Assembly (NCBI RefSeq): GCF_004214815.1
Contig: NZ_CP035926.1
Coordinates: 1,054,001 to 1,118,000, forward strand
Source: Aliarcobacter thereius LMG 24486
GTDB lineage: Bacteria; Campylobacterota; Campylobacteria; Campylobacterales; Arcobacteraceae
Direction of reading: 5' to 3'
Length of the DNA: 64,000 nt
Part shown: positions 12,840 through 49,020 of the stretch, piece by piece
Position numbering within the stretch: position 1 is the first letter of the stretch
How the letters are laid out: each line of letters starts with the position of its first letter
Translations under genes and position numbers: made by a program
Notes under the pieces: model-generated
What the model saw: only the letters and a program-made list of their open reading frames with translations
Database searches by the model: none
Told to the model about the DNA's origin: nothing

Positions 12840-12864
12840 GTAAAATATAAAATAAATACTCAAG

Positions 12865-13125: not shown

Positions 13126-13134
13126 CATAAAAAA

Positions 13135-16040
<2,906 letters not shown>

Positions 16041-32346: not shown

Positions 32347-33009
32347 ATGGCATATATTTTATCATCACTTATAGCTATTGCAGCAGCAATTATTATTTTT
32401 CTTACAAAATATGATGCAGACGATAGTACATTTTTAACAAAATTAGAGTTAGCAGAAAAAAGTTTTAAAATAATAAATGATAATTATACTCCTTTGTATA
32501 ATGACTTTACAACAATGAATTTTGCAACACTTTATGCAAATGACAATTTACCAGCAAATATAAGTGCAGTTGGAAATAATGCAAATATTGTTTCAAGTAA
32601 TGGTGCTTCTTATGGAAGTGTTGAAAAAGATATAAAAGCAAATATCTTAAAAGCTTTTCAAGAAGAAAATAAAACTGAAATAGATAAATACACTACAACA
32701 ATACTTATTTTACCAAATCAAAGAGATATAAGATATCAGCTTCTTCCTATTGTTTCAGGAGATAAAAGCAGACAAGGTTTAGATATAACAGCTTCTTCAG
32801 GAACTGGTTATAAAATTATTGTAGATTTTAGTTTAGATAAAACACTTTTAAATAAATCTGCTTTTACTGAAAATAGATATAAAGAGATATGCCAAAATGA
32901 GCTTTTTGGGGATTTCTTTGCAGATTACTCTTCTATAAACCAAAATTTTAACTTAGTTTTAGGTGGATCGAAAAGTGATGGAAAAATCGCTTGTATAGTA
33001 TATAAATAA
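32347..33009 (+). CDS. Membrane-anchored pilin-like protein, first gene of the pilus-like locus
   Basis: 220 residues of unknown family. An N-terminal hydrophobic helix (MAYILSSLIAIAAAIIIFLT, residues 1-20) is followed by a helical segment and a globular, Asn/Ser-rich domain with two cysteines (EICQNEL and KIACIVYK, near the C-terminus) that could form a disulfide. This is the overall design of a type IV pilin or minor pilin. No prepilin cleavage site (Gly or Ala before Phe/Met, with Glu at +5) is visible. It starts 14 bases after lptB with AGGAG, so it may be co-transcribed with lptB. Confidence 0.6.
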   Translation: MAYILSSLIAIAAAIIIFLTKYDADDSTFLTKLELAEKSFKIINDNYTPLYNDFTTMNFATLYANDNLPANISAVGNNANIVSSNGASYGSVEKDIKANILKAFQEENKTEIDKYTTTILILPNQRDIRYQLLPIVSGDKSRQGLDITASSGTGYKIIVDFSLDKTLLNKSAFTENRYKEICQNELFGDFFADYSSINQNFNLVLGGSKSDGKIACIVYK

Positions 33010-33076
33010 TTTGATTTTTTCTTTTAAAATAATTTTTTTATTATTTAATTTAATTAAAATATAAGAATAAATTCTT

Positions 33077-33109
33077 TATAATTCCACCAAATAGTTTAAA
33101 AACTATAAT
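33077..33109 (+). promoter_or_regulatory. Candidate promoter(s) of the major pilin-like gene
   Basis: Two TATAAT hexamers (33077-33082 and 33104-33109) lie in the 122-base gap before the ATG at 33132, followed by AGGGG as ribosome site. Either could give this gene its own strong transcription start inside the operon. Confidence 0.45.
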
Positions 33110-33131
33110 TTAAAATTATGAGGGGTTTATT

Positions 33132-33836
33132 ATGCCACAATTGATAGCTATGATTATTATTGTTGTTGGAGCTATGATTTATATGTTCCAAACATTTGGT
33201 GGAACTGGAGATAAAATTACAGGTGTTGCTCAAAAAACAAGTGTTATTACTGAGATTAACAATATAAAAAGTGGATTACAATTTGCAGCAAGAGATGGAG
33301 TTATTCTATCTGCTATTGATGCAACTGCAACTCAAGGTGTAGATTATGCTTTAAATCTTCAAGATTTAGCAAAAATGGCTTATTTTGCAGACCAAATAAA
33401 TGGACAACTTGCTGACCCAAATAATAAACAACCTAATGTTTATAATGCTATATCTTTTGGTGGTGGAGTTATTACAGAAGCTAATTTAATAGATTCAAAA
33501 GGTGCTATGGAACTTTCACTTGTAAAAGTTAAAGATAAAACACCTGGTATATTTGTTGATTTAAGTAAAGGTTCTTTAAAAGATAATGCTGGTTTTTTAG
33601 AGAATCAACTAGCAAATGATTTAAAAGCGATTGCATTTATTGATAGAGGAGCTACTAGTGATACTGCTGGAGCTGTTGCATTAACTGCTGATGATAAAAA
33701 AGCAATTGGTGAGGCATTTGCTAACAAAATACCTGGTAAAACAGCAACAGATGCAGACAAAAATAAAGATGGAAAATTCATAATATATTTTGGTGATTTT
33801 TCTTCAGCTGAATCTGTAAAAGAAAAACTTAATTAA
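33132..33836 (+). CDS. Putative major pilin-like subunit
   Basis: 234 residues. The N-terminus is a hydrophobic helix (MPQLIAMIIIVVGAMIYMFQTF, residues 1-22) running into an amphipathic helix (SVITEINNIKSGLQFAARDG). This is the alpha1 architecture of type IV pilins, and the NNIKSGLQ segment recalls type IVb (TcpA/PilS) subunits. The rest is a Gly/Ala-rich globular domain with no cysteine. There is no canonical prepilin leader and no Glu5. It has its own candidate promoter, a strong AGGGG site and two hairpins downstream, as expected for the most abundant subunit. Major-pilin status is inference. Confidence 0.6.
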   Translation: MPQLIAMIIIVVGAMIYMFQTFGGTGDKITGVAQKTSVITEINNIKSGLQFAARDGVILSAIDATATQGVDYALNLQDLAKMAYFADQINGQLADPNNKQPNVYNAISFGGGVITEANLIDSKGAMELSLVKVKDKTPGIFVDLSKGSLKDNAGFLENQLANDLKAIAFIDRGATSDTAGAVALTADDKKAIGEAFANKIPGKTATDADKNKDGKFIIYFGDFSSAESVKEKLN

Positions 33837-33847
33837 GTTTATTTAAA

Positions 33848-33878
33848 AATATTTAAAGGGTTTTCCCCTTTAAATATT
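33848..33878 (+). terminator. First hairpin after the pilin-like gene
   Basis: Perfect 13-bp inverted repeat AATATTTAAAGGG / CCCTTTAAATATT with a 5-base loop, 12 bases after the stop codon. There is no T-tract. It is probably a 3'-end stabiliser or attenuator. Confidence 0.6.
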
Positions 33879-33884
33879 AAAATT

Positions 33885-33923
33885 AAAGCAAAGTTTTATA
33901 TCTAAAATTTTGCTTTGCTTTTA
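33885..33923 (+). terminator. Second hairpin after the pilin-like gene, terminator-like
   Basis: AAAGCAAAG / CTTTGCTTT, 9 bp, with an inner TTTTA/TAAAA pairing, ending in TTTT. It lies between the pilin-like gene and the next gene, so transcription may be reduced here. Confidence 0.6.
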
Positions 33924-33943
33924 CCACAATATAGGGAGTAGCT

Positions 33944-34666
33944 TTGTTTAGTAATATCTTTATAAAATCAGCCTTTATAATAGCCACGATTTTTACTATA
34001 TCTAGCTTATACCATGCACTAAACACTTCAAGACAGGTAAGACATATTCAAGAAAACTATGAAATAGTAAGTAAAGCAAAAGAAGAATATATAAAAACAT
34101 ATAATATTGAAGATATAAACGATATCAAAAGAGAAGATATTATAACTTTCTTACCAAATGGAAACTATGAGAAATCTATGCTTTTAAATAGAGATAATGA
34201 TAAAAACCTATCAAACAATAGCTTTATAGATAAAGATGTAAATATTGATATAAGTAAAGAAGAGAGATTAAAAATATTTGCTCTTAAAGCAAAAATATCA
34301 AAAGAGGAGTTTGTTTCAGATGGAGAAAATTATAAAATAACTCTTGGTAAAGAAGCAACCAGCAATTATGATATACAAAAAGATTATAAAAAAGCTCTAC
34401 AAAATGCAAGAACTTTTTTATACTCTTTAATTATGAAAGATATTATGGATAGTTCAAAAGATATAAACAATAATGAAATAAAAGCAACTATAAAAGATTT
34501 TAAAGATAATAAAGTAATAGATTTTATACCAAATTATGAAAAAACTAAAGATAGTGAGAAACAAACACTAAAAGATAATTTTATTTTATTATTAAAAGAT
34601 AGTTTAAACTCTTATTCAAGTGGTTATGAAGCAAGAGTTTATAAAGTATTAGAGGAGAATTTATGA
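33944..34666 (+). CDS. Single-pass exported protein of the pilus-like locus
   Basis: 240 residues from a TTG start with GGGAG upstream. One N-terminal hydrophobic helix (about 7-25, IKSAFIIATIFTISSLYHAL) is followed by a long charged helix (RQVRHIQENYEIVSKAKEEYIKTY). A Lys/Asp/Asn-rich soluble domain follows. The helix after the membrane segment resembles the KEE..A...Y module of the next four secreted proteins, but it is weaker. No prepilin site. It may be a minor pilin-like or assembly protein; function unknown. It overlaps the next gene by four bases. Confidence 0.55.
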   Translation: MFSNIFIKSAFIIATIFTISSLYHALNTSRQVRHIQENYEIVSKAKEEYIKTYNIEDINDIKREDIITFLPNGNYEKSMLLNRDNDKNLSNNSFIDKDVNIDISKEERLKIFALKAKISKEEFVSDGENYKITLGKEATSNYDIQKDYKKALQNARTFLYSLIMKDIMDSSKDINNNEIKATIKDFKDNKVIDFIPNYEKTKDSEKQTLKDNFILLLKDSLNSYSSGYEARVYKVLEENL

Positions 34667-35403
34667 TAAAAAATATTACTATTTTTATGTTTTTAACAAC
34701 TCTTCTATATAGCAATAGTTTTGATGATATTCAAAGAAAAGGTAAAGAAGTTAAGAAAATCGTAGAAGCTGAAGAACGATTTATAAATGCTTTTGAAAAT
34801 AATATCTTACAAAACTTTAAAATTGTAGATGCAAATTATATAAATAGTAGTGGATTAATTCCAGCAGATATAAATATATCTGGTTTAAATAATAAAGAGT
34901 TATATTTTAATTCTAATTTAAATAAAGATTTTAAAGATGATAGTTTTTTAAATGAACTATATAAAAGCAATACTTTTAGACAAAGAAGCTATTTTAATGA
35001 TGATAAGATATATTTTAATATAGAAAATTCTCTAGCAAAACTACTTTATACTCTTATGATTTATAAAAAAACCGATGAAATAAAAGTTTGTCCAAGTAGT
35101 TTTTCATCAAAAATTGATATTTGTACTTTCGAGAATAGTATTTATGTTGATATTAAAAAATATGGGAATTTATTTGAAGATTCTAGTTCAGAAAAAAAAC
35201 CAAGTGAATTTTTACTAGCATTTAACCTAAATTCATATGAAAAAGGTCCAATTATTGTAGATAAAATTGATGAAGATGAGCCAATTTTAAACTTTTTTTC
35301 AAATGGAACTCATTTTTTTGATAAAGATGGAATAAAATTTGTAAAAGTTGGCGATGAAGGTGCTAAAGATAAAAAATTTGTTAATCTAACAAATGAGGAG
35401 TAG
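34663..35403 (+). CDS. Secreted protein with the shared N-terminal module (A)
   Basis: 246 residues with a Sec signal peptide (MIKNITIFMFLTTLLYSNS). The N-terminal module (EVKKIVEAEERFINAFENNIL, about residues 30-50) also occurs in three neighbours. A region of alternating short strands follows, with a cysteine pair (CPSSFSSKIDIC). No known domain is recognised. Probably a periplasmic or surface component of the pilus-like machine. Start and end overlap or touch the flanking genes, so it is a genuine operon member. Confidence 0.6.
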   Translation: MIKNITIFMFLTTLLYSNSFDDIQRKGKEVKKIVEAEERFINAFENNILQNFKIVDANYINSSGLIPADINISGLNNKELYFNSNLNKDFKDDSFLNELYKSNTFRQRSYFNDDKIYFNIENSLAKLLYTLMIYKKTDEIKVCPSSFSSKIDICTFENSIYVDIKKYGNLFEDSSSEKKPSEFLLAFNLNSYEKGPIIVDKIDEDEPILNFFSNGTHFFDKDGIKFVKVGDEGAKDKKFVNLTNEE

Positions 35404-35405
35404 TT

Positions 35406-36158
35406 TTGAGATATTTAGTTTTTATTATATTTATACTAAATTTAAATCTATTTGCAATAGATAATAAAACTATTTTAGCTCTTTCAAATATTATAGAAAG
35501 AGAAGAAGAGATTGCAAAAAACTATGAAAAATATATTTTAAATGAATACAAGCTTCCTACTATGGAAGATTTAATCAAAGAAGATATAGAAAATAGTGAT
35601 TCTTACTATTTAGGCAGTAATTTTTCAAGAAAAAATATCTTTGGCAAAAGCTTGTCTTTTTATGATACAAATGCTAGATTAAATAGCTCTTTTGATGAAA
35701 ATAAATTTTCAAATGAGTATTTAAAACTATATTATAAAAGAGATTTATATAGAGATAGAACTTCTGTTTATGAAGAAAATGGAAAACTAAAATATGTTCA
35801 AATAGTTTTAAAAACTAAAGAAGCTCAAAATATATTTAAAATATTAAGTTCTGGAAATGAGATAGTAAAAGTAGAAAAGTATGCTGATTGTAAGACAAAT
35901 AAATATTGTATAAATCCAAGTGATAATATAAAAACAATTAGAAAATATACAGCAAGTGATGCTTACTTGATATACAATATAAAAGATTTGGAAAAAGGAA
36001 ATATATATATTAGTAAAAAAATAAACAATCCACCTTTAAAACAGAATGACCCAATTTATATTGAAATGGAGTTTAATAAATTAAATATTGGCACTATTAT
36101 TTTTTCTGATAGTAAGAAATATATAAAACTTGATAATGGTATTTATGGAGTTGAATGA
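35406..36158 (+). CDS. Secreted protein with the shared N-terminal module (B)
   Basis: 250 residues from a TTG start preceded by GAGGAG. Signal peptide MRYLVFIIFILNLNLFAID. The shared module LSNIIEREEEIAKNYEKYILNEYKLPTMEDL (about residues 27-57) is clearest here and in the two RCC1 proteins. A globular part with two cysteines (CKTNKYC) follows. No recognised family. It ends overlapping the start of the 931-residue RCC1 protein, suggesting balanced synthesis. Confidence 0.6.
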   Translation: MRYLVFIIFILNLNLFAIDNKTILALSNIIEREEEIAKNYEKYILNEYKLPTMEDLIKEDIENSDSYYLGSNFSRKNIFGKSLSFYDTNARLNSSFDENKFSNEYLKLYYKRDLYRDRTSVYEENGKLKYVQIVLKTKEAQNIFKILSSGNEIVKVEKYADCKTNKYCINPSDNIKTIRKYTASDAYLIYNIKDLEKGNIYISKKINNPPLKQNDPIYIEMEFNKLNIGTIIFSDSKKYIKLDNGIYGVE

Positions 36159-38950
36159 TGTTTAAATATATTTTTATTTCACTAAGTTTTATCTCTATTT
36201 TATTTTCTAATAGTTCAAAAGAGTCAATTATAAATGATGTTAAAATTTTAATCACAAAAGAAGAGAGATTGGCTTTAACTATAAATAGATATATTTTAGA
36301 AAATCTAAAACCACCAATTACAAGTGATTCTAAAATAAATTATGAAGATGAAGAGTTTAAAAAGCTTTTGGGAAATAGTTTTGAAATTTTCAAAAATCCT
36401 ATAACAAATAAAAATCTACAAATTGAGTATTTAAAAAATGGAAGATTTGTGATAAATTCAATGATAAATGAAGATTCTAAATACAATGATAAAAATAAGT
36501 TTGCTTATAATTTCTATATAGATCCAAATTATAGAGTAAATACTCAAGCACCTTTAACTAATAACGAAGATGATATGAGCAAAGGAACTTTTATAAAATA
36601 TAATAATCTCCAAAAAAGAATTATGGATTTATATTTAAAAGGTGAAAGAATTCAAAAAAGTTCTGAATGTAAAAGCAATGGTTATTTTTGGCAATTAGTA
36701 AACAATGATTTAATATATAAATATTGCAACAACTTAAATAAAACTATTACTGTTTATCAAAAATATCCTTTATATCTTGAAGATGCAAAACAAAGAGATT
36801 ATCTAAAAGCTGAAATTGGAGATAAGATATATACAAAAGATGGTTTATGGGGAGAGTTCTTTTTTGGTGTTGATAATGATGGTTGGAGTAATGTAAGTAG
36901 AAGAAATGATAAAAAAAATAGTGATATGTGTCTTGAAGAGAGAATTTTAAACTATATTCCTGAATCAAAAGATTTACTTATAAGAAAAGATGGTGGATGT
37001 ATGTTGGCAAATGGTGATATATTTTGCTGGGGAGATAATAGTTTTAAAAAAGCTGGAATTGAAAATCATGGACAATTGGATAAAAATATAAATCCTGATT
37101 ATGTAAATATTCCAATAATGCTTAAATCAGATTTAGAAAACTTAGGCGATATAAAAGTAAAAGATAAAAAGTGGTACAACTCTCCATATAGAGTAAAGTT
37201 CGAAAAAATGGCTATGAATAGCAAGATGGTTTGTGGAATTTCTCCTATATTTGAAACAAATTTTACTTTAAATGAAGATGAACTTGAAGATGAAATTTGT
37301 GGAAATATATCAAAACCAAAACAAGATACAAATGATAAAGATAAAAAGATAGTAAAATCTGCTGGGAACTTATATTGCAATGGAGATATAAATAGAAGTG
37401 AATTTTTAATAGAAAATGAAACAACAGCAGAATCTATACTTAGAAAGAATATTGAATTTGATTTAAATAAAAATGATTTAAATCAAAATAAAGATGCAAT
37501 ATTTCTAAAAGATATTGCAATGATTGAAGATGCAATTTTACTTTTAAGTGATAAAGGTGATTTATTTACTATTGGTACAAATACAAATGGAGTTTTAGGA
37601 ATTAATAGTGATGATTTCAACTTTTATAGTAAAAAGGCAAAAATAAATATTGATAATCTAGCAAAAGTTAAATTTGTATCAATAGCTGCAACAAGAGATA
37701 AAAATATTTTTGCTGCTATTGATGAAAGTGACAATTTTTATATTTGGGGAGAAACTTTTAAAGGTAACTTTACAAAACCAACAATTATTTCAAGCTCAAT
37801 AAAACTATCTGAAAACTATCTTTTACCACAATCAGAAACTTTTGTAGTAAGAGATAATAAAGGAAGATTTTACTACTTAAATGAAGAGAATAACTTGATT
37901 TTAATTCCAACAAAAACTGATGAAAAAATGACTTCAGCAACAGTTTATAAAGCAGGAAACAGTTGGAAAATAGCTTATGTGAACAATGAAGGTGTTTTAG
38001 TATCTAAAGAGAGCAATTCAGTTGCACTTTCTTGTAAAAATAAAGATGCTAGTTCTTGTACAGGAGTTGATAAAACTATTTTTGAAGACTCTTTAAATAG
38101 CTTAAATGAGCCTTCTATTGCAGTTGGTAATAAATATTATGCTTGGTTTAAAAATCTTAGTTATTTTAGTCCAAATGTATTCAAAAATAAAAAAGAGAAT
38201 TTTGAAAATAGAGTTTTAAACTCTTGGAAAGGTGATTTTCATAATGGAAGATTAAATTCTCAAAATATTGTTTCTCCATTTTTAGGGATTTTTGGAAAAA
38301 ATCATAATAATCCAAATCTAAATATCTCTATTTTAGATGGTTCTCAAAGCATAAGCAAGAACTACTCTTTTGTAGATGCAAAAAACAGTAGAACAAACAT
38401 AAAAATCAAAATATATGAACTTGGAATTTGGAATAATAGTGATTTTAATATATATATAAATGATAATAAAGTTTTATCACAAGATTTTAATAATAGTTCA
38501 AATTCTGAACAAATCTCTTATGATAGTAGTCATACTATGAATTTAAAAGAGCATATTATTGATATAAAAACTCAATTTGATGAGAATGGAAATCTAAAAT
38601 TAGGCTTTGGAGCTGTATTAAATAGTGATGCCAAAAATCAAGGTTTTGGTATAGCTTCGATTGAGTTTAATTATGAAAAAGATTCATCTGAACCATTTTT
38701 ATGTACAATTACAGGTGTAAAAGGATTGGATCAAATGTATTGTTGGGGAAATACAGGAAGAAGTTTACCAATAATAAATACAGGACTTTATGATATAAAT
38801 AAAATTTCATCTGTTAATAGATTGTTTGTAACTCCAAAAGAAGATTTTGAAAAGCAGATGGCTTTTGATAAATTCAATAAAGATGGAAGCTTGTTTTTAC
38901 AATATCCAACATATATAAATAGTTTCGACTATCCATTTAAATTTAAATAA
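36155..38950 (+). CDS. Large secreted RCC1-repeat (beta-propeller) protein 1
   Basis: 931 residues. After a signal peptide (about 1-20, ending LFSNS) come the shared module (DVKILITKEERLALTINRYIL), a mixed domain to about residue 260, and then RCC1/ATS1-type blades. GGCMLANGDIFCWGDN (about 280-295), ILLLSDKGDLFTIGTN, IFAAIDESDNFYIWGE and LCTITGVKGLDQMYCWGN are clear blade motifs with the Gly-Asp-aromatic-x-x-Trp-Gly core. A beta-sandwich-like insertion (about 690-860) precedes the last blade. The C-terminus is YPTYINSFDYPFKFK. Several cysteines fit an oxidising compartment. By analogy with PilY1, it may be a pilus-tip adhesin. Confidence 0.7.
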   Translation: MMFKYIFISLSFISILFSNSSKESIINDVKILITKEERLALTINRYILENLKPPITSDSKINYEDEEFKKLLGNSFEIFKNPITNKNLQIEYLKNGRFVINSMINEDSKYNDKNKFAYNFYIDPNYRVNTQAPLTNNEDDMSKGTFIKYNNLQKRIMDLYLKGERIQKSSECKSNGYFWQLVNNDLIYKYCNNLNKTITVYQKYPLYLEDAKQRDYLKAEIGDKIYTKDGLWGEFFFGVDNDGWSNVSRRNDKKNSDMCLEERILNYIPESKDLLIRKDGGCMLANGDIFCWGDNSFKKAGIENHGQLDKNINPDYVNIPIMLKSDLENLGDIKVKDKKWYNSPYRVKFEKMAMNSKMVCGISPIFETNFTLNEDELEDEICGNISKPKQDTNDKDKKIVKSAGNLYCNGDINRSEFLIENETTAESILRKNIEFDLNKNDLNQNKDAIFLKDIAMIEDAILLLSDKGDLFTIGTNTNGVLGINSDDFNFYSKKAKINIDNLAKVKFVSIAATRDKNIFAAIDESDNFYIWGETFKGNFTKPTIISSSIKLSENYLLPQSETFVVRDNKGRFYYLNEENNLILIPTKTDEKMTSATVYKAGNSWKIAYVNNEGVLVSKESNSVALSCKNKDASSCTGVDKTIFEDSLNSLNEPSIAVGNKYYAWFKNLSYFSPNVFKNKKENFENRVLNSWKGDFHNGRLNSQNIVSPFLGIFGKNHNNPNLNISILDGSQSISKNYSFVDAKNSRTNIKIKIYELGIWNNSDFNIYINDNKVLSQDFNNSSNSEQISYDSSHTMNLKEHIIDIKTQFDENGNLKLGFGAVLNSDAKNQGFGIASIEFNYEKDSSEPFLCTITGVKGLDQMYCWGNTGRSLPIINTGLYDINKISSVNRLFVTPKEDFEKQMAFDKFNKDGSLFLQYPTYINSFDYPFKFK

Positions 38951-38958
38951 GGAAGAAA

Positions 38959-40620
38959 ATGAAAAAAAATATCCTAATATCAATTGGTCTATCTTTTTTA
39001 TTATTTCAAGGATGTACTCCAAAGAGTTATCATAATGAAATGTTAGAAAAGCAAAAAGAGGCATTAAATAAAGATGATTTTAATCAAATTAAAGACTCTT
39101 ATTCTGAATCATTGATTGATACAAAAACTGTAAAACAAAAATATGTATCTATTTTAGAAGATAAATCTCTAAGCGATGTTTTAAAAGAGCTAGAAAATAT
39201 TGATGGAAAAATATATTTTTTAAAATCTAGCGATATTTTAATTCCTAAAAGTAGATTAAAGATTAAAAACTTTAATGATTTAAACAACTATTTAAATGCT
39301 GTTTTAGATAAAACATTGGTTTTAGAAAAGAGTTCATCTTTAAATTTAGTATCAATTTTAAGTACAAGTGAAAGTAAAAAATTATCTATAAATAATAAGA
39401 AATTTAATTTAGATGGTCAATTAAGTGTTGAAGAGTTACTTAAATTAATCACAAAAACAACTTCTTATCAAGTAAATATTGGATCATATATTGAAAATAG
39501 AAATGATTTTCAAAATAGTATTATTACTATTAAATCTAATATCTTAAAAGATGCTCTAAATCAACTTGCAAGTGCAAAAAATGTTTATGTAGATATTGAT
39601 TATGAAAAAGAGTCTATAAATATAAGTAGATATAAAGATGTTGTAATTGAGCTTAATATTCCACTTCTTGATATGAGTTCATCTAGTAAAACATCAAATC
39701 AAGAAAATACAGGCGAAAGTAAAATTGAGAATAAACAACAAATAGTTTTATATGAAGAGCTTGATAAAATGCTAAAAAACATAATATCAAATGACAAAAT
39801 ATCAACTTATCATATAGATAAAGCAAGTGGTTTAGTATTTTTAAAATCTACAAAAAATATTGAAAGTGCTGTAAGAACTCTTGCAAAAGCTTATGAAGCA
39901 AGTTTTGCAAAAGAAGCAATAATTGAGTTTGAAAGAATAGAACTAATTTTAAATAAAGATAGAAAATTTGGAATTCTAGGTGCAAATTTTGCAAGTATAG
40001 ATGGAGGTAGAGGAACAGGTGCAAATATAGGAAATATTGTTCCTGAAATGACAAGTGATATAGCTATTAATAGTATTACTAGAAATCTTCAAGTATTAGC
40101 TCAATCAAACAATAATATAGGAAGAGTTTTAAATTATAGTAAAAATATGTTAATTCTTAAAAATAATCTTCCAACAGTTCAAGCAATTACAGAAAATACT
40201 GATTATGTAGAGAAGATTGAAGTAACAATAGACACAGATACAAAAGTAAGAACTTCTGATGTTACAGTTAATACAATTAAAGAAGGTACAAGCATAACAG
40301 CTCTTGCAAAAATATCAAGAGATAAGATATTTCTAAATATTAATCCAAGTATAAAAAAACTTCTTGCTCTTGATGAAAAAACAATAGATGGAAGTACAAT
40401 TCAACTTCCAAAATATAATGACCAAGGTTATAATGTATCAAAAGAGATTAGACTTGGAGAGACTTCAATTGTTGGATCTATTATTGTTCATGATGATGCA
40501 AAAGAGTATCAAGGAATTATACCAATAGATGGTTTTGCAGTTGGTGGTAGCGATTCTAAATCTTATATAAGAAGAGAAATTGTTTATGTTGTAACTCTAA
40601 GAGAAATTAAAGGATTTTAA
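38959..40620 (+). CDS. Lipoprotein secretin (PilN/BfpB-type outer-membrane channel)
   Basis: 553 residues. The signal sequence ends in a lipobox-like LLFQGC, so the mature protein is probably lipidated, as in type IVb pilus secretins. N0/N1-like periplasmic modules follow (SLSDVLKELENIDGKIYFL, LSVEELLKLITKTTSYQVN, ILKDALNQLASAKNVYVDID). The C-terminal secretin domain (about 320-553) shows EFERIELILNKDRKFGILGANF, IGRVLNYSKNMLILKNNLPTVQAI and ETSIVGSIIVHDDAKEYQGIIP, and closes REIVYVVTLREI. It is expected to form the multimeric outer-membrane gate. It lies 8 bases after the RCC1 protein gene and 5 bases before the platform gene. Confidence 0.82.
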   Translation: MKKNILISIGLSFLLFQGCTPKSYHNEMLEKQKEALNKDDFNQIKDSYSESLIDTKTVKQKYVSILEDKSLSDVLKELENIDGKIYFLKSSDILIPKSRLKIKNFNDLNNYLNAVLDKTLVLEKSSSLNLVSILSTSESKKLSINNKKFNLDGQLSVEELLKLITKTTSYQVNIGSYIENRNDFQNSIITIKSNILKDALNQLASAKNVYVDIDYEKESINISRYKDVVIELNIPLLDMSSSSKTSNQENTGESKIENKQQIVLYEELDKMLKNIISNDKISTYHIDKASGLVFLKSTKNIESAVRTLAKAYEASFAKEAIIEFERIELILNKDRKFGILGANFASIDGGRGTGANIGNIVPEMTSDIAINSITRNLQVLAQSNNNIGRVLNYSKNMLILKNNLPTVQAITENTDYVEKIEVTIDTDTKVRTSDVTVNTIKEGTSITALAKISRDKIFLNINPSIKKLLALDEKTIDGSTIQLPKYNDQGYNVSKEIRLGETSIVGSIIVHDDAKEYQGIIPIDGFAVGGSDSKSYIRREIVYVVTLREIKGF

Positions 40621-40625
40621 GAAAA

Positions 40626-41642
40626 ATGACACTATTTAAAGATCCATATGAGATGTTTTTACTAGATTATCTTGTAACAAAACTTGAAACTGGTTCAAAT
40701 ACAAGAAGAGCTTTAGTTTTATATAGCGATCAAATCACAAAAAAGACTAGATTTAAAAAAAGACTTCTTGCAGCAATAAAAGATCTTGAAAGTGGAAAAC
40801 AAAGGCTTGAAGAAGTACTTTTTAAACACAAATTCTTAAATACTTTTCAATATAGTATTATTGCAAATAGTACAAGTACAGTTGAAGGTTTAAAACTTGT
40901 TTTATCTTTTACAAAAGGTAATCCAAATTTAATTGCAAGAATGATAAATCCTATATTTATACCTCTATCAATAATTATTGGTTCTTTTTATAGTTTGATT
41001 TTATATATGGAGTATTTGGATAAAGATATAATTTATCTTAAAAAACTAAACCCTGATGTAGAGCAGTTTTTAGGAATTCCAAGTTATTTTACATATCCAT
41101 TTGCATATAGTGGTCTTGCAATTTCTATATTTATCACTATTTTTATTTTTGTTTTTTATATGTATAGTGAAAAGTATAAACCTTCTTGGATTTATAAAAT
41201 ATTCAAAACTCAAGCTTATAGTGATGGAAGATATATGTTTAGAATATTAAATGGTATGTTAAGTGCTGGAATATCTTTTCATAAAACATCTGCTATTTTA
41301 GCAAATGAGTATTTTAAATTAGGTCTAAGACCTTTTTTCAAAAGCCTAAGTATTATGATTGAAAAAAACAAAAAACTATATGTAATGTTTGAAAAATACA
41401 ATTTTCCACCATTAATAACTGCTGAAATAAAACTAGCTGAACTTAGTAAATCAAATTTCCCAGAGCTTACAAAAGCACTATATTTAACTTGCGATACTAT
41501 GTTTGAGAAAAACATAGATTATGTTGTTTTACAATGGAAATTTTTATTTTGGCTATTAGCTATGCTTGTAACTGTTGTAATTGGTTCTGATATTATAAAT
41601 TTAGTTATTAGTACATTTACATTTAAAACACTATATCAATAA
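40626..41642 (+). CDS. GspF/PilR-family inner-membrane platform protein
   Basis: 338 residues. Two cytoplasmic four-helix T2SSF domains (about 25-95 and 205-285) are separated by hydrophobic helices (about 105-125 and 155-180), with a final helix (about 305-328). The second repeat shows the typical FRILNGMLSAGISFHKTSAILANEYF and LAELSKSNFPELTKALYLTCDTM. It is the rotating platform on which the ATPase acts during pilus polymerisation. It follows the secretin and precedes the ATPase, the order expected of a type IVb pilus or type II secretion core. Confidence 0.85.
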   Translation: MTLFKDPYEMFLLDYLVTKLETGSNTRRALVLYSDQITKKTRFKKRLLAAIKDLESGKQRLEEVLFKHKFLNTFQYSIIANSTSTVEGLKLVLSFTKGNPNLIARMINPIFIPLSIIIGSFYSLILYMEYLDKDIIYLKKLNPDVEQFLGIPSYFTYPFAYSGLAISIFITIFIFVFYMYSEKYKPSWIYKIFKTQAYSDGRYMFRILNGMLSAGISFHKTSAILANEYFKLGLRPFFKSLSIMIEKNKKLYVMFEKYNFPPLITAEIKLAELSKSNFPELTKALYLTCDTMFEKNIDYVVLQWKFLFWLLAMLVTVVIGSDIINLVISTFTFKTLYQ

Positions 41643-41653
41643 AGAGAGGAAAA

Positions 41654-43345
41654 ATGTTAAAAAAATTCTCATTAAGAAAATATAAAATAAAAAAAACAAA
41701 GTTTAGCTCTTTAAAAAATATATTTGATTTTAAGAAATTTAAAAAATTAAAAGAGTTTAATCTAGAAGATTTTATTAAAAAAAACAAAGAAAAAGTTGAA
41801 AATATTTTAAATAATGATGAAAATAACCAAGCTAATCTTCAATCAATAATTGAAAATATGATTAAAGATAAATACAATTTAAAAGGTGGATTTTCTGATT
41901 TAATTGTAAATGAAGAGAAATATGCAAACTTTGTAAAGAATATGGGTTATGAATATTTTGATAGCTATAAAGAGTTGCAAAAACACTATATTGATACAAC
42001 TGGTTTTTTAGATGATAAGAAACAAGAACTGTGTTCATCTATGTATATGATAACTCTTGAAGATATAAAAAATAAAAATAAAGTTATTGGAATAAGAGAT
42101 GTTGTAAATTTAGATTTTGAAGTTTTAAGTAAATTTTACTTTACAAAAATCATAGTTTTAGGTGAAGGTGTTTTATCTGCAATTTTTGGAGAAGATAGAG
42201 AGATTATATTTAGTCAAAAAGCTGATACAGAAAGTGATGAAGAGATTGATAAATATTTTGAAAAGCTAATGGGTCAAGCTATTTTACTTGGTGCTAGTGA
42301 TATTCACATTCAAAAAACATCAAGAAGTGCTTTTTTATGGTTTAGAATTGATGGTATAAAAGTAGATATGGGTTCTATGCCAATTCCTATTGCTAAAACT
42401 TTAAAAAGAAGACTTGTTACAATGGCTGATCAAGAGGATTCAGATTTTGAATCTATTAATGGTGTTATTAGTTATGAGTATGCAAAGAAACCTATTAAAT
42501 TTAGAATTGGTTTAATAAACTCAAAACAAAATTTCTCTTTGGTTATGAGGATGATTGGTGGTAAAGGTGTTGTTTCTCATGATTTAGGTGGATTAAACTA
42601 TCCAAAAGAGACAATAGATATTCTAAACAATCTTACAAAATATGCAAATGGAATGATATTAATAACAGGTCAAGTTGGAAGTGGTAAAACTCACTTAATG
42701 TATGCCCTACTTCAAAAACTTGCAAAACAACAACAATATGTTGTAACTATTGAAGATCCTGTTGAATATGTTGATGAATCTTTCTTCCAAATTGATTTAT
42801 CTGAATTCTCAACAGCTAGTGAAGAGTTTAAATATGGTTATCCTGAAGCTGTTGTTGATATTTTAAGACAAGATTCAAATATTATATTAATTGGGGAAAC
42901 AAGAGAACCACAAACAGCTTCACAACTTGTAAATGCTTCAAACTTAGGACAACTTGTATTTTCTACAATGCATACAAACTCTGCTCCTGCAACAGTTTCA
43001 AGGATGACAAGTTCACTTGGAATAAATGAAGGAGATGTTGTAGATAACTTAAGAGGAATAGTATCTCAAAGATTAGTTAGAAAGCTATGTACTAGTTGTT
43101 GTGTTCCAGATGGAAAAGGTGGAAATAAAAAAGTTGGTTGTGAGCATTGTGCAAATAGTGGATTTAAAGGTAGGGTTCCAATTGCAGAAGTTGTAAGATT
43201 TAAAATTGGTTCTGGTGGAGATTTTGAAAATCCTGCTGAATATATGACTGTTGAAAAAGCAACTATGTCTCAATATTATGCTGGTTTCATAACATATGAA
43301 GATGCACAAGCTATTGTAAGAGGAGAAGAAGTATGGTACGACTAG
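41654..43345 (+). CDS. GspE/PilQ-type pilus assembly or secretion ATPase
   Basis: 563 residues. The lysine-rich N-terminal extension (about 1-60) is unusual. Then come an N2-like domain with GASDIHIQKTSRSAFLWFRIDG and the ATPase core: Walker A GQVGSGKT (339-346), Asp box TIEDPVEY, Walker B ILIGETRE (Glu415), His box STMHTNS. A C-terminal four-cysteine zinc element CTSCC...CEHCANSGFKGR is intact. It powers subunit addition. The overlap of 13 bases with the next gene indicates coupling. All catalytic elements are present, so the machine is probably functional. Confidence 0.92.
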   Translation: MLKKFSLRKYKIKKTKFSSLKNIFDFKKFKKLKEFNLEDFIKKNKEKVENILNNDENNQANLQSIIENMIKDKYNLKGGFSDLIVNEEKYANFVKNMGYEYFDSYKELQKHYIDTTGFLDDKKQELCSSMYMITLEDIKNKNKVIGIRDVVNLDFEVLSKFYFTKIIVLGEGVLSAIFGEDREIIFSQKADTESDEEIDKYFEKLMGQAILLGASDIHIQKTSRSAFLWFRIDGIKVDMGSMPIPIAKTLKRRLVTMADQEDSDFESINGVISYEYAKKPIKFRIGLINSKQNFSLVMRMIGGKGVVSHDLGGLNYPKETIDILNNLTKYANGMILITGQVGSGKTHLMYALLQKLAKQQQYVVTIEDPVEYVDESFFQIDLSEFSTASEEFKYGYPEAVVDILRQDSNIILIGETREPQTASQLVNASNLGQLVFSTMHTNSAPATVSRMTSSLGINEGDVVDNLRGIVSQRLVRKLCTSCCVPDGKGGNKKVGCEHCANSGFKGRVPIAEVVRFKIGSGGDFENPAEYMTVEKATMSQYYAGFITYEDAQAIVRGEEVWYD

Positions 43346-44082
43346 CAATAACTGATTTTTCTTCACAAGAAGAGAGTGAACATTTTTATTTAGATAATGA
43401 TCTTGAGAATTCAAAAAGATTATTTACTTATAACTCTTTCAAAAAAAATGAAGTATATGTTTCAAAAAACAGTGTATATGATTTCTACTCTTTAAATTTA
43501 TTATCAAAAGAGTATTTAGATGGAAATGAATTTTTAATATATATTGCAGATGAAGAGTTTGTATTACTTTTTAATCATAAAACAATATATAGTGTAAAAT
43601 TAAATTTAAACTTTATAACAGATGATATTATAAAGTCAATTCTTATGACAAATCATATAACAATGCTTAGTAGTGGTGGAAAGATAAATAAAATAAACTA
43701 TATTATTGATTCAAAATTTAGAGCTGCTATTGAAGTTTTACTTCAAGAAAATATAAAAAATGATATTAAAGAGATAATATGTTTTAAACTAGGAGATTCA
43801 AAAGATTTAGTAGAAAATTTAAATGAGCTTGATACAACAAATAGTTTTTACTCAAAGATATCTATTCTTTTTATATTAGCTTTTGCAATTTTTTACGGTA
43901 TGTTTTTTGGACTCAATGATTTAAAAGAAGATTATCTGACACATCCTAGTTTGGAACCTATAAAACAAGAGTTAGAATTTGAAAATAGATTTATAACTAG
44001 ACAAGATAAAACTTTGATTAATGTTCAAAAAGAGTATGATGATTTAATTTCATGTATTTCAAATAAAGAAGATATAAAATGA
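43333..44082 (+). CDS. GspL/PilM-N-like bitopic assembly protein
   Basis: 249 residues. A cytoplasmic domain of about 175 residues is followed by one membrane helix (ISILFILAFAIFYGMFFGL, about 176-194) and a short periplasmic helical tail. This topology matches GspL or BfpC/PilM-PilN fusions that link the ATPase to periplasmic partners. The position directly after the ATPase and before a PilO/GspM-like gene supports this. No sequence motif proves the family. ATGA overlap with the next gene. Confidence 0.6.
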   Translation: MVRLAITDFSSQEESEHFYLDNDLENSKRLFTYNSFKKNEVYVSKNSVYDFYSLNLLSKEYLDGNEFLIYIADEEFVLLFNHKTIYSVKLNLNFITDDIIKSILMTNHITMLSSGGKINKINYIIDSKFRAAIEVLLQENIKNDIKEIICFKLGDSKDLVENLNELDTTNSFYSKISILFILAFAIFYGMFFGLNDLKEDYLTHPSLEPIKQELEFENRFITRQDKTLINVQKEYDDLISCISNKEDIK

Positions 44083-44561
44083 TTAGTTTTAGCAGAAAAA
44101 AAGTAAAAAATATTACAAAGATTTCGATTATTGTTTTGGCTATATATTCATCTATTTTTTTCCTATACTCTGGTTTTGAATATTATCAAACTATGCAAGA
44201 AAAAAATGAATTATTAAAAGAATTAGATATAAAAAAGCTACAAACAGAGCAAATAAAAGATAATATAAAAGATATTGATAATAAAAAATCTCAACTAAAA
44301 GCAAGATTTTTAAATAAAGAAGAGTTAGATAAAAAACTAAAATCTGTATTTAAAAACTACTCTTTGGCTGATTATAGATTAAGTCTTGTAGATAGTAAAA
44401 TGATTTGTGTAGATAGATTTATGCTAATAGTTAATTTGGATGCTAGTTCAAAAGAGGGAATACAAGCTGGAGAAAGAATACTTGGATATTTAGGTAAAGT
44501 CCAAAGAAAAAAGGGTTTTGATACTCTTTATTTTGTTGATTATATTCAAAAAGCGAGGTAA
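44079..44561 (+). CDS. GspM/PilO-like bitopic assembly protein
   Basis: 160 residues. There is a short basic cytoplasmic tail, one membrane helix (about 13-32, ISIIVLAIYSSIFFLYSGFEYY), a coiled coil (MQEKNELLKELDIKKLQTEQIKDNIKDIDNKKSQLKARFL), and a small ferredoxin-like C-terminal domain. This is the PilO/GspM architecture. It overlaps the GspL-like gene by four bases, as pilN-pilO or gspL-gspM pairs do. Probably forms the inner-membrane alignment complex. Confidence 0.65.
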   Translation: MISFSRKKVKNITKISIIVLAIYSSIFFLYSGFEYYQTMQEKNELLKELDIKKLQTEQIKDNIKDIDNKKSQLKARFLNKEELDKKLKSVFKNYSLADYRLSLVDSKMICVDRFMLIVNLDASSKEGIQAGERILGYLGKVQRKKGFDTLYFVDYIQKAR

Positions 44562-44566
44562 TAATT

Positions 44567-46870
44567 TTGAAAAAAGTATCTATTTTTATTTTAATAATAT
44601 CTTTAAATTTGTTTGCAAATAGTAGTATTGAATCACTAAATGAGAAGAAAATAGAAAAACTTATTCAAAAAGAAGAACAACTAGCTATTGCTTATAGAAA
44701 ATATCTTGTAGTAGAAGCAAAAAAAGCCACAAGAATTGAAGATTTGAAAGATTATTTAGTGGATGGATTTGATTTTATAAACCCTTTTGGAATAAAAATG
44801 AATTTAGATTTTGAAAATGGACAAATAGTAAGTTTCAAACCAAGAAATGAGACTATTTTAAATAGTATGATTCTTCACTATTATTCAAATAAAAATAGAA
44901 ATAATACTTTAGCTCCATTAGATACAAAAAATAATGTAATTATAGAGTTAAATAATATTGAAAATTTTATTCAAAACAACTCTTCTAAAATAGTTAAATA
45001 TAATCAAAATAGAGAATCTAGTAAATTTAGAGTTAAATTAAATAAAGAAGATGAAGAGAACAAAAAAACAAATGATAATCTTTTAAATAATGTATCTCTT
45101 GAATATTTTGGAAGTGATGGAAAATCAAAATATTCATATAGTCCTCTTTTTGGAATAACTTTTGCTTCTGGAATTAGCTTCCAAGATGATAATTTACAAG
45201 TAACAAAAGAGGTAAAAGATTTAAATATTCCTTCTGAATTTATGACTCTTGGAGTATCTGTTTTCGATTGTGTTTATGGAGATGTAAATAAAACTGAGTG
45301 TAGAACTGTAAAAGAGTCAATAGCTATTGGTCCAAATAACTTTGTAAGAGTGAATCCAGATGAAGTAAATGTAGGAAAAACTGTAATTCAGTTTTATAGA
45401 AGAGCTGGTGGAATGTTAGTAAATGGAGATATATATGCTTGGGGAAACAATGGTAAAGGAATTACAGGAATAGAAGGTAATAAAAGTTTTACAGGAAAAG
45501 TAAAAACCAATTCTGAACCTGTAATAAATGCTATTATGCCTTTAAGAGCAAAATTATATACAAATATAAATGATGTAAGTTCAAATGAAAATAATAAATA
45601 TTATGTACAAAACTATTTTAATTCACCAAAAAGACCAAAATTTATTGATTTTTTTATTTCTGTTTATCATGGTGCTTGTGGAATTAGCACAAAAGGTGAA
45701 CTTTATTGTAATGGAACAACAGGAGGAAGTAGTAGTTCTTGGTATAGTGACTTAGATGGAGTTAATAGACAAGGAGAGTTACTTTATAGAAGTAATCGTT
45801 TTGATGGAAGTACTGAAAGCAAAAGATTAAAAAAAGTTTTTGCAAATAATCAAATATGGCATTTTTTAAGCGAAGATGGAAAAGTTTATAGATGGGGAAC
45901 ACCTTCAAGTGGATTTGCAGGAAATGATTCCTTCTACAAGTCATTTAGTAATTATTCATCTATTGATAATCTTTCAAATATAGATGATATTACATATATT
46001 TTGACTATTGGTTTTAGGAGAATTGGTGCAATAGATAAAAATGGCGATATTTTCATTTGGGGTGCTGAAGGTGTAAATGGTAATAGTTGTACTAGAAATT
46101 TTAATGGTAAATCTTATAATTTTTGTTCTGCTCAAAAGGTTGTAAGTGGAAATTCAAATATGAGTAATATCCCAAAATTTGTATCATTAAGAGGTGGAGT
46201 TGATGCCTTTATAGCTCAAGATGTAAATGGTGATTTTTATAAAATCAAACAAGGCAATAATACAAATGATAAAATAGAATTAGAATCAATAAAAGAGAAA
46301 ATAAAGTCTTATAATGACACAAATTCTATTAGAAAATATGATCCAAAAAAAGATAATAGAATTATTTCAGCAGATATAGCAAGAACAATAGATGATTTAA
46401 ATAATCCTTCAAGATTTAGTTCGGGTGTTGTTTGGGTAAATGAACACAATGAACTAAAAGGTGATATATTTTTTAATAATACTCACAAAAATGATAAACA
46501 CTTTAATGAATCTATAAAAAAAATAAAATGGACACAAGTAAAGGTAATTCAAGAGGAAAATGGTATTTGTGGAATAGATGTAAATCATCAGATGTATTGT
46601 TGGGGAATTCAAGCTTATTATAGAAATTCAAGTGGAAGCACTAGCTGGGGAAATACTTATATGATCCCAGTTTTTAATACAAATTTATATGATTTAAATA
46701 AAGATTTTTTAGTTCTTGAAGGAGCAAGTGATTATCTTACAGCTATATCATCAGGAGAATGGGTAGATAATGTAAAAGGTGCAGATGGTGGTAAAGAGCA
46801 CAAAGATGCCTTTTTTATGAAATACCCAACATATATTGGAGGTTTTAACTATGAATACGAATTTAAATAA
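44567..46870 (+). CDS. Large secreted RCC1-repeat (beta-propeller) protein 2
   Basis: 767 residues from a TTG start. The signal peptide ends LNLFANS. The shared module EKLIQKEEQLAIAYRKYLVVEA is at about 27-48. A mixed domain with two cysteines follows, then RCC1-like blades: GGMLVNGDIYAWGNNG, GACGISTKGELYCNG, WHFLSEDGKVYRWGTP, RIGAIDKNGDIFIWGAEG and GICGIDVNHQMYCWGIQ. The C-terminus PVFNTNLYDLNK...YPTYIGGFNYEYEFK matches that of the 931-residue protein. The two are clearly paralogues placed on either side of the secretin-platform-ATPase core. Likely surface or tip protein; role inferred. Confidence 0.7.
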   Translation: MKKVSIFILIISLNLFANSSIESLNEKKIEKLIQKEEQLAIAYRKYLVVEAKKATRIEDLKDYLVDGFDFINPFGIKMNLDFENGQIVSFKPRNETILNSMILHYYSNKNRNNTLAPLDTKNNVIIELNNIENFIQNNSSKIVKYNQNRESSKFRVKLNKEDEENKKTNDNLLNNVSLEYFGSDGKSKYSYSPLFGITFASGISFQDDNLQVTKEVKDLNIPSEFMTLGVSVFDCVYGDVNKTECRTVKESIAIGPNNFVRVNPDEVNVGKTVIQFYRRAGGMLVNGDIYAWGNNGKGITGIEGNKSFTGKVKTNSEPVINAIMPLRAKLYTNINDVSSNENNKYYVQNYFNSPKRPKFIDFFISVYHGACGISTKGELYCNGTTGGSSSSWYSDLDGVNRQGELLYRSNRFDGSTESKRLKKVFANNQIWHFLSEDGKVYRWGTPSSGFAGNDSFYKSFSNYSSIDNLSNIDDITYILTIGFRRIGAIDKNGDIFIWGAEGVNGNSCTRNFNGKSYNFCSAQKVVSGNSNMSNIPKFVSLRGGVDAFIAQDVNGDFYKIKQGNNTNDKIELESIKEKIKSYNDTNSIRKYDPKKDNRIISADIARTIDDLNNPSRFSSGVVWVNEHNELKGDIFFNNTHKNDKHFNESIKKIKWTQVKVIQEENGICGIDVNHQMYCWGIQAYYRNSSGSTSWGNTYMIPVFNTNLYDLNKDFLVLEGASDYLTAISSGEWVDNVKGADGGKEHKDAFFMKYPTYIGGFNYEYEFK

Positions 46871-46897
46871 ATCAATAGGAAGAGGAAAAAAATAGAG

Positions 46898-47935
46898 ATG
46901 AAAAGATTTAAATTATTAGCTTTTTTACTACTTTTTGTAGTAAATATTTTCGCAAATGAGACTACAAAAGATGAAAATACTCAAAATAAACAAGAAGAGA
47001 TAGATAAACTTGATATGCTTGATAAGCAATCAAAAGATTTTTATATGGCAGTTACTGGTTTAGAAAAAGAGTATTTAGAAGAGCAATTAAATAAAACAAA
47101 AGAGCAAAATGAAAAAGATGGTTTAAATAAACAAAAAAATACAAATGCTCAAGGTATATTCATAACTAAAGAAGAACAAGAAAAAAATCTTTTCAATCAT
47201 CAAAATGAACTTGCTAGAATTACAACTGATTTTACAAGAACAAAAAAACTAAAAGACCTAAAAATCAAAGGTATGTACAACTTCAATGATACATCTTATG
47301 TTGTTTTACTTTTAGATGATGAGTCATTAAGAGCAAAACAGACAACAGAACTTAGTGGAAATATTGAAGGAAGATATATTTTAGGAGATAAAATCCTAGG
47401 TCATAAAATAGTAAATATAAACACTAGAACAAAAAGTGTTGAATTATTTAAAGATTTAGATAAAAGCGTCGGTTATACAGTTTATTTAAGTAATTATGGA
47501 ATAACTTTAAGTAATCTTGAAAAGATAGATAAAAATCATCCTAGATATTTTCAGATTACAGGTGAAAAAGAGATTAAAAAAGTAGTATCAGTAGCAAAAG
47601 ATAAAGAGTTAGAAAAAGTAAAAAAGAATGAAGAAAAAACTCCAATAAAAGAAATAATAGAGAAGAAATCTCAAAACATAGCTAAAAAAGAGAGTCTAAA
47701 ATGTTATAAAGTAAATAAAAATAGATTAAATGTAAGATCTAACTCAAATTTAAAATCTAGAGTTCTTAAAATCTTAGAACAAGGTGATATTGTAAAAGTA
47801 TCATTTGAAAAAAAGCCTTGGGTAAATCTTGATACTATTTATTATAAAGATAGTAAAAGAGAAATAAAGGTTAAAAATCAAAACAATTGGATACAAAATT
47901 TGAATAATAATCTTGTTCCAACAAAGTGTAAATAG
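46898..47935 (+). CDS. Periplasmic PilP/GspC-like protein with C-terminal SH3b domain
   Basis: 345 residues. The signal peptide ends LFVVNIFANE. A long charged helical linker follows (about 25-115). Next is a beta-rich module (LKIKGMYNFNDTSYVVLLL...YILGDKILGHKIVNINTRTKSVELF, about 122-190), whose order of strands matches the GspC/PilP homology region that docks onto the secretin N0 domain. A lysine-rich linker leads to a bacterial SH3 domain (CYKVNKNRLNVRSNSNLKSRVLKILEQGDIVKV, about 269-345), which could bind peptidoglycan. The family call is structural inference. Confidence 0.6.
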   Translation: MKRFKLLAFLLLFVVNIFANETTKDENTQNKQEEIDKLDMLDKQSKDFYMAVTGLEKEYLEEQLNKTKEQNEKDGLNKQKNTNAQGIFITKEEQEKNLFNHQNELARITTDFTRTKKLKDLKIKGMYNFNDTSYVVLLLDDESLRAKQTTELSGNIEGRYILGDKILGHKIVNINTRTKSVELFKDLDKSVGYTVYLSNYGITLSNLEKIDKNHPRYFQITGEKEIKKVVSVAKDKELEKVKKNEEKTPIKEIIEKKSQNIAKKESLKCYKVNKNRLNVRSNSNLKSRVLKILEQGDIVKVSFEKKPWVNLDTIYYKDSKREIKVKNQNNWIQNLNNNLVPTKCK

Positions 47936-47943
47936 GAATAAAT

Positions 47944-49020
47944 TTGGAAAATATTAATTTTAAAGAGCTAGTAGATAATAAAATAGTAAATTCTTTAGAT
48001 AAGATTATGAAATTAAAAAGTGATTTTACCTATTTATTCAATATTGATAATATTTTTTCAAATGAAGCTGGTGGAAAATCTAGATTAAATAGAGATTTAT
48101 TTAATCAATATAATCAAAAAATTCAAACAGATATTTCTGATTTAAGAAAAATATTTGTTGAATCAAATATGCTTTGTTTTGATGAATTTAAATCTATTTT
48201 ATCAAATCTAAATCTTTTTGATAGTTTAAAATTAAATGAGTTTTTTATAGATGATAAAATATTAATAAATGATTTATCTTCTCATCTTAGTGATATAAAA
48301 ATACCAAATAAGAAAATTGATGAGATTATAAGTTCTATACAAGAAACAATTGATTTAAAAAATAAATTAAATAATCTTGAGTTCTATTTAAATATTTTTG
48401 ATACTTCAAGCTTAAATAAAAATTTAGATAAATATACTCCTGAAGAGCTTATAAATAGCTCTTTAATATTTGAAACTATAAACTCTTATGCACTTTTATA
48501 TGAACAATTAATAAAATTTGAAGAAGAGATTTTAAGTTATATAGAAGAGAATTCTTCAAATTCTAATCATATTTTTAAAAATATTGAAAAACTTTTAGAA
48601 GTATTAAATAAAAGAGCTGATACTTACTATTATCTTGACAATAGATATAAAATATCTCTTGATTATGATTTAAATTTTGATACAAAAAAAGATATTAATC
48701 TAGAATCTTCTATTATTGAGAATATAATTTTTAATCTTATAGAACAATCTTGTTTAGATACTATAAAAAAAGATATTAAAAAAGGTAAAATCCAAAAACA
48801 GATTCAAATATCTTTCAATTTAAGAAAAGATTTATTAGAAGTAGTTATTTCTAATAATGGTTTTGAAGTAGGAAATATAGATGATATTGTTGTTTTAAAT
48901 AGTGAAAATAAACTTATAATTGATACAATAAACCTATTAAATATATTTAATCAAGAACTTTTTATTGAATCGAAAGAGAATGAAGGAATGAGCTATAATT
49001 TTAGTTTAAATTTAAACTAA
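47944..49020 (+). CDS. Degenerate histidine-kinase-type ATPase (HATPase-like) protein, last gene of the locus
   Basis: 358 residues from a TTG start. The N-terminal two thirds are helical and leucine/asparagine-rich. The last 110 residues resemble a GHKL ATPase: an N-box-like IENIIFNLIEQS, then strands QIQISFNLRKDLLEVVISNNG where the G1 box (DxGxG) should be, and a terminal ENEGMSYNFSLNLN like the G3/F end. The G1 glycines and aspartate are not recognisable, nor is a phospho-acceptor histidine block. It may be a pseudo-kinase or scaffold controlling the pilus system. Cytoplasmic. Confidence 0.5.
   Translation: MENINFKELVDNKIVNSLDKIMKLKSDFTYLFNIDNIFSNEAGGKSRLNRDLFNQYNQKIQTDISDLRKIFVESNMLCFDEFKSILSNLNLFDSLKLNEFFIDDKILINDLSSHLSDIKIPNKKIDEIISSIQETIDLKNKLNNLEFYLNIFDTSSLNKNLDKYTPEELINSSLIFETINSYALLYEQLIKFEEEILSYIEENSSNSNHIFKNIEKLLEVLNKRADTYYYLDNRYKISLDYDLNFDTKKDINLESSIIENIIFNLIEQSCLDTIKKDIKKGKIQKQIQISFNLRKDLLEVVISNNGFEVGNIDDIVVLNSENKLIIDTINLLNIFNQELFIESKENEGMSYNFSLNLN

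Follow-up and report, generated by a model that had tools for sequence, protein, structure and literature searches.

A 14-gene locus of Aliarcobacter thereius LMG 24486 probably builds a surface filament resembling a type IVb pilus (T4bP) with RCC1 propeller proteins at its tip, as judged from its sequences and predicted structures, and its two candidate pilins are encoded without a leader peptide. The locus lies in a window of 64,000 nucleotides (positions 1,054,001 to 1,118,000 of contig NZ_CP035926.1), which is the whole stretch that was analysed and to which all coordinates of the locus refer. It occupies positions 32347-49020, with lptB on one side and an ABC-F gene on the other, and all 14 open reading frames (ORFs; numbered g1 to g14) of the original prediction are present on the + strand, with overlaps of a few bases between several neighbors (for example g3/g4, g9/g10 and g10/g11). 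The original prediction knew of no described pilus with RCC1 propellers; this does not hold, as the minor pilin PilX2 of the Saccharibacteria TM7x is a precedent (PMC12206443). It included neither the leaderless pilins nor the N-terminal module that g4 and g5 have in common with the RCC1 proteins, and the leaderless major pilin is the part of the system for which no report was found.

The candidate minor pilin g1 (32347-33009; 220 residues) begins with MAYILSS and enters its transmembrane (TM) helix at residue 3, and the candidate major pilin g2 (33132-33836; 234 residues) begins with MPQLIAMIIIVVGAMIYMFQTFGGTGDKI. A relationship between the two is detected by hhalign (E 3e-7, probability 93). 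For each of them all 23 loci examined have a Shine-Dalgarno sequence 5-11 nt ahead of the start codon, and the open frame upstream of that codon is not conserved, shrinking to three codons in g2 of L067 and to a single codon in g2 of L068 and in g1 of L066, L072 and L073. Prepilin peptidase requires Gly or Ala at position -1, and neither residue ever occurs there in the 23 loci examined for each gene. The hydrophobic helix starts at residues 2-4, and residue 2 itself is small (Pro, Ala or Gly), permitting removal of Met1 by methionine aminopeptidase. Position 5 of g2 is an invariant Ile in place of Glu, and the N-methylation motif is missing (no match to N_methyl). The helix of g1 is followed by an acidic segment (TKYDADDS or TRYEADDS), which would favor an N-in orientation without a charged leader. 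Thus, on their sequences, g1 and g2 lack the class III signal peptide by which two reviews define type IV pilins (PMC4471445, PMC10191384), and given this departure from the defining feature of type IV filaments we have not filed the locus as a canonical T4bP. Most simply, the ancestor of this family would have lost the leader.

The AF2 model of g2 (pLDDT 88) consists of one long helix spanning residues 2-54, followed by an alpha/beta head. The top match of this model in the VIA comparison is TcpA of the toxin-coregulated pilus (TCP), with a Z of 7.4 over 151 residues (model residues 4-220 on residues 2-198 of the mature chain), followed by two C. difficile pilins and, in fourth place, S. Typhi PilS (Z 4.7), with unrelated proteins from 3.3 down. 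The model is therefore suggestive of a TcpA-like pilin fold. The pattern of variation in g2 is equally distinctive: mean pairwise identity is 82% over residues 1-52 and 44% over the remainder, its head is only 53% identical between the window and the nearest relative, L066, as against 98% for the ATPase, and its dN (nonsynonymous divergence) of 0.32 is the maximum of the locus, at least three times that of any other locus gene. The 107-nt gap between g2 and g3 holds two tandem hairpins on the + strand (33848-33878 and 33885-33916; predicted -30.6 kcal/mol, z -5.7), the second with a long AU-rich stem and a T-rich, terminator-like end. Such hairpins, with a T-rich stretch after the second, are found at the same gap in a majority of the 20 further loci examined, as might be expected of a separately regulated, abundant transcript. 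The constant helix, the diversified head and the 3' hairpins would together make g2 look like a surface-exposed major pilin.

Both of the large exported RCC1-repeat proteins claimed for the locus were recovered, g12 by its structural model and g6 by sequence. In g6 (36155-38950; 931 residues) an N-terminal module at residues ~20-240 (hereafter the N-module) is followed by an RCC1-like region and a C-terminal tail, YPTYINSFDYPFKFK; in g12 (44567-46870; 767 residues) the N-module is encoded at 44624-45286, and the propeller with a ring-closing C-terminal tail at ~45344-46867. The RCC1-like family PF25390 is matched with e-values of 6e-11 (g6) and 1e-11, both far under its cut-off, and a match to RCC1_2 is borderline (22.0 bits, the cut-off being 22). 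In the AlphaFold model of g12 (m45781440e013; pLDDT 79.5) residues ~270-767 retrieved HERC2/UVR8 with Foldseek (E 2e-11), and residues 271-762 gave VIA Z values of 19.6 on UVR8 and 17.6 on human RCC1; as modelled, the C-terminal half of g12 is an RCC1-like propeller of seven blades. Weaker hits in the same VIA comparison included propeller lectins (Z ~14), which is compatible with a binding role. The PilC-type propeller of PilY1 (PF05567/IPR008707) found no match in g6 or g12.

The N-module is not restricted to the propeller proteins. Profile comparisons with hhalign unite g4 (34663-35403; 246 residues), g5 (35406-36158; 250 residues) and the N-terminal ~230 residues of both g6 and g12 in one paralogous family, with e-values of 3e-12 to 6e-33 (g4-g5, 6e-33; g4 with the N-terminus of g12, 3e-14; g5 with the same, 1e-22). 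The locus thus encodes four exported N-module proteins, two with a propeller and two without, all four having invariant cysteines and a Sec-type signal peptide of the ordinary kind. In g6 and g12 the C-terminal ~80 residues are related as well (hhalign E 3e-25), and a C-terminal peptide, YPTYIGGFNYE.FK, is near-invariant, with 86% mean identity as against 47% for the propeller. We considered this peptide as a secretion signal and rejected the idea, since the model places it in the last, propeller-closing strands and the RCC1 proteins of another genome, G051, do without it; a structural role is likelier.

The assembly core is most clearly represented by g9 (41654-43345; 563 residues), an extension ATPase of the GspE/PilB class, as had been predicted: it matches PF00437 with E 6e-62, over the cut-off, and GspE/PilB structures with E 2e-41 to 4e-37. 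It scores 193 bits with the GspE model and 35 with the TadA model, so that the ATPase that marks Tad/Flp (type IVc) pili is not what the locus encodes. The secretin lipoprotein g7 (38959-40620; 553 residues), with a lipobox Cys19 that is invariant across the aligned family, matches TIGR02520 (PilN-type) at E 9e-8, scoring 31 bits where the cut-off is 288, and among PDB structures matches BfpB (E 5e-4), suggesting that its nearest named relatives are of the PilN/BfpB type. The GspF/PilR-like platform candidate g8 (40626-41642; 338 residues; 82% mean identity in the family alignment) matches PF00482 in two stretches, under the cut-off (E 0.0097), and has the place and size expected of a platform. 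The remaining core components were recognized largely from their layout. By layout only, g10 (43333-44082; 249 residues), a bitopic protein whose large cytoplasmic part precedes its TM segment and which has no confident Pfam match, is BfpC/GspL-like, and g11 (44079-44561; 160 residues), with a TM segment, a coiled coil and a weak DivIC match, is PilO/GspM-like. The proposed PilP/GspC-like protein corresponds to g13 (46898-47935; 345 residues), which is exported and has an HR-like middle and an SH3-like end; by resemblance it would be an analogue of PilP/GspC, but at the level of families Pfam offers only a weak SH3_3 match (E 0.003). Pfam detected no N_methyl domain and no pseudopilin of the GspG/H/I/J/K series, a feature of type II secretion systems (T2SSs), in g1-g5. 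No recombinase of an R64-type shufflon was seen among the 14 genes, although no search aimed at PilV/Rci was made.

The only further full GspE of the genome (1.915 Mb, one contig) belongs to what looks like the Cts competence/T2SS cluster. The original placing of the RCC1 proteins in a type IVb-pilus-like machine is supported, and this machine is distinct from that cluster. No PilT-like ATPase was found in this genome. There is no prepilin peptidase among the 14 locus genes; the sole copy in the genome (165 residues) adjoins uppS at 1784737, in what we take to be the arrangement around Campylobacter jejuni pilD.

Of 104 Arcobacteraceae genomes surveyed, 25 have an orthologue of the ATPase (E < 1e-140) and 24 have the g12 RCC1 protein. 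When the 25 loci were fetched and their gene orders compared, about 22 had all 14 genes in unchanged order, some of them cut by contig ends or disrupted; recurrence of the same genes in the same order in so many other genomes excludes chance. N-module RCC1 proteins and the core occur together in 24 of the 104 genomes, the core by itself in one (G049), an RCC1 protein by itself in one (G093) and neither in 78 (Fisher p 3e-21, uncorrected for shared ancestry). The RCC1-like Pfam model has matches in 31 of these genomes, mostly inside this locus; the remaining matches, those of G051 apart, are large proteins that occur singly, are unrelated and lack the N-module. Hence RCC1 genes standing mostly without the secretion core, which would have spoken against the original prediction, were not what we found: those with the N-module occur almost exclusively with this core. 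Directly downstream of the pilins of a divergent core in G051 (L089; secretin 33% identical) lie RCC1 proteins of 634 and 896 residues (PF25390 E 4e-37 and 1e-49), and both open with the N-module (E 4e-18 and 4e-24). More widely, the g2 pilin family and the N-module are confined to the same 13 of 397 Campylobacterota genomes, all of them Arcobacteraceae. A search of genome contigs returned nine named loci, none recognizable by name as coming from outside the Arcobacteraceae; one of these records is labelled Helicobacter pylori, but is a metagenome-assembled genome matching G049.

Several copies of the locus are damaged. A frameshift breaks g9 in G006 (L088, 11941-13582), and G093 retains a remnant (L090, 6289-7485) with only the end of the locus from part of g10 to g14, which indicates that the organelle has been repeatedly lost. 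In the nearest relative, G015, an insertion element encoding a 400-residue, IS256-type-transposase-like protein splits g8 (L066, 8895-10097), and the machine there is probably off.

Putting these components together, we propose that the g9 ATPase, the g8 platform and the inner-membrane and periplasmic coupling proteins g10, g11 and g13 would polymerize the pilins, with g2 as the major subunit forming the shaft and g1 as a minor subunit, and that the filament would pass through the g7 secretin. The exported N-module proteins g4, g5, g6 and g12 may assemble as a complex on the filament or at its tip, with the propellers of g6 and g12 pointing outward as adhesins or receptor-binding heads, analogous to PilY1, TcpF/CofJ and the modular minor pilins. 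Both pilins would be translated without a leader, and their N-termini probably set by methionine aminopeptidase rather than by prepilin peptidase. A fuller reading, to which we hold tentatively while regarding it as a serious candidate, is that this lineage lost the class III signal altogether: the pilins would be made in mature form, oriented N-in by the acidic segment behind the helix and trimmed by methionine aminopeptidase only, dispensing with prepilin peptidase, N-methylation and the Glu5 salt bridge, and would carry duplicated RCC1 tip proteins.

It should be noted that several observations weigh against such a filament. Searches with sequence profiles of g1 and g2 against Pfam, NCBIfam and the PDB matched no pilin family or solved pilin; the Z of g2 on TcpA is below 8, the safe level of the tool, and Foldseek gave nothing significant for the g2 model. 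The N-module, considered as a possible pilin domain lacking an anchor, showed no relationship to g1, g2 or g3 by hhalign, and its profile matched no solved structure. The claim that the machine is built around RCC1 proteins is borne out by their co-occurrence but not by L087, which has the core genes g1, g2, g7-g11 and g13 and no RCC1 proteins. Furthermore, every locus-bearing genome searched keeps a prepilin peptidase elsewhere, so that we infer independence from this enzyme from the sequences of the pilins.

Alternatively, the locus may be a secretion system, in which g1 and g2 form only a short piston like a pseudopilus, while the RCC1 proteins, together with g4 and g5, are soluble cargo that leaves the cell, as happens with TcpF via TCP. 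The Sec-type signal peptides and invariant cysteines of g4, g5, g6 and g12 agree with this, as do the GspE-type ATPase in a genome without a PilT-type one and the precedent of TcpF itself, which is secreted via a type IVb pilus and rides with its N-terminus on the minor pilin TcpB (PMC9565799); in the present locus it is likewise an N-terminal module that the proteins have in common. A mere piston, however, would hardly call for a subunit as seemingly abundant and surface-diversified as g2, with its hairpins and variable head, and the module-only paralogues g4 and g5 suit a structural complex better than cargo; we regard a secretion system as rather unlikely, though deserving of consideration.

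The absence of any class III motif in the locus and the weak sequence support for g1 and g2 as pilins would also be explained if these two were fixed inner-membrane parts of a machine that is not a pilus (for example for DNA or vesicle export), with the true pilin elsewhere. We consider this improbable in view of the TcpA/PilS-like model of g2, its constant helix and variable head, its operon position and the adjacent hairpins. Still less probable is an ordinary type IVb pilus whose leaders were overlooked because of a non-standard upstream start codon. KKG-like in-frame codons do occur upstream in some loci, and true class III pilins exist in distant sister loci, but these codons are the Shine-Dalgarno sequence itself, the upstream frame is unconserved and dwindles to 1-3 codons with neither Gly nor Ala at -1, and the alignment to TcpA is in register from the encoded N-terminus of g2. 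We retain the leaderless, RCC1-tipped filament as our working model.

Two further genes of the locus fall outside the recognizable core. The protein g3 (33944-34666; 240 residues), in its family alignment, is bitopic and helix-first, without a leader, and a Pfam profile search assigned it to no family. The cytosolic g14 (47944-49020; 358 residues; family alignment of 24 members with 58% mean column identity) is present only in loci with a g12-type RCC1 protein and is missing from L087 and L089. By eye it had a kinase-like look, an assignment that was dropped as none of the 24 members has a plausible Pfam match. Among RCC1 proteins encoded elsewhere, G010 has, next to a type II secretion cluster that looks complete, a 750-residue RCC1 lipoprotein and a paralogue sharing its N-terminal repeats (L118, 8688-12982), and G068 encodes large proteins, some RCC1-bearing, with an identical C-terminus, TDDILNGFIGSQEFIQLAASYGINP, that is possibly a common export or anchoring tail (L119, 3875-11755; L120, 8985-11114).

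Type IV pilins are conventionally defined by their class III signal peptide and the peptidase that acts on it. If our reading is correct, a conserved lineage dispensing with both would demonstrate that cleavage of a leader is no inherent part of filament assembly, and this natural exception would allow the roles of N-methylation and Glu5 to be tested. Searches by signature, with N_methyl or PilFind-like tools, would miss such systems, and other surface fibers may hide for this reason. Aliarcobacter and its relatives, which include emerging gut pathogens, gain a concrete candidate surface organelle, and RCC1 propellers emerge as a plausible class of bacterial adhesin. A literature search, with most subscription journals outside its reach, returned no report of leaderless pilins or of a leaderless major pilin, and nothing linking RCC1 proteins of Arcobacter to pili.

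Among known systems, the locus is closest in organization to the type IVb pili (TCP of V. cholerae, CFA/III and Longus of enterotoxigenic E. coli, BFP of enteropathogenic E. coli and the PilS pili of R64 and S. Typhi), which likewise combine in one operon a GspE-type ATPase and bitopic proteins with counterparts of the candidate BfpB/PilN-type lipoprotein secretin, the candidate platform and a pilin of the kind that the TcpA-like model suggests, along with an exported tip or secreted protein (cf. TcpF/CofJ); as in TCP, no retraction ATPase accompanies it in this genome. It differs from all of these in that its pilins lack the leader, Glu5 and the N_methyl motif, in having no prepilin peptidase of its own, and in adding two RCC1 proteins, two module-only paralogues and the family-specific g14. 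A functional analogy links it to PilY1/PilC and the modular minor pilins (PMC8179133), where a propeller or another functional head is mounted on a type IV filament, although the propeller here is RCC1-like and not PilC-type. Compared by description, the type IV pilus of TM7x also has a protein with an RCC1 propeller, namely PilX2, a minor pilin whose propeller of RCC1 repeats is hepta-bladed and for which no PilD signal peptide is predicted. However, the TM7x pilus is type IVa-like, belongs to an episymbiont and has canonical major pilins, and PilX2 is itself a pilin with a C-terminal propeller (PMC12206443), whereas the RCC1 proteins here carry Sec signals and an N-module of another kind, and it is the candidate major pilin that is leaderless. 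A further comparison is offered by the distant sister loci L162 (G043; 1541-15194), L163 (G141; 2584-12579) and L164 (G051; 6478-15163), which have related secretins, platforms and ATPases (E 1e-12 to 1e-65) and, in L162, weak relatives of the N-module. Unlike the present locus, their pilins have KKGFSLVEL-type class III signals (N_methyl E 1e-8), and no RCC1 proteins were seen in them. In G051 a class III system is found alongside a leaderless one with RCC1 proteins, and the class III clusters L162, L163 and L164 offer a natural comparison set.

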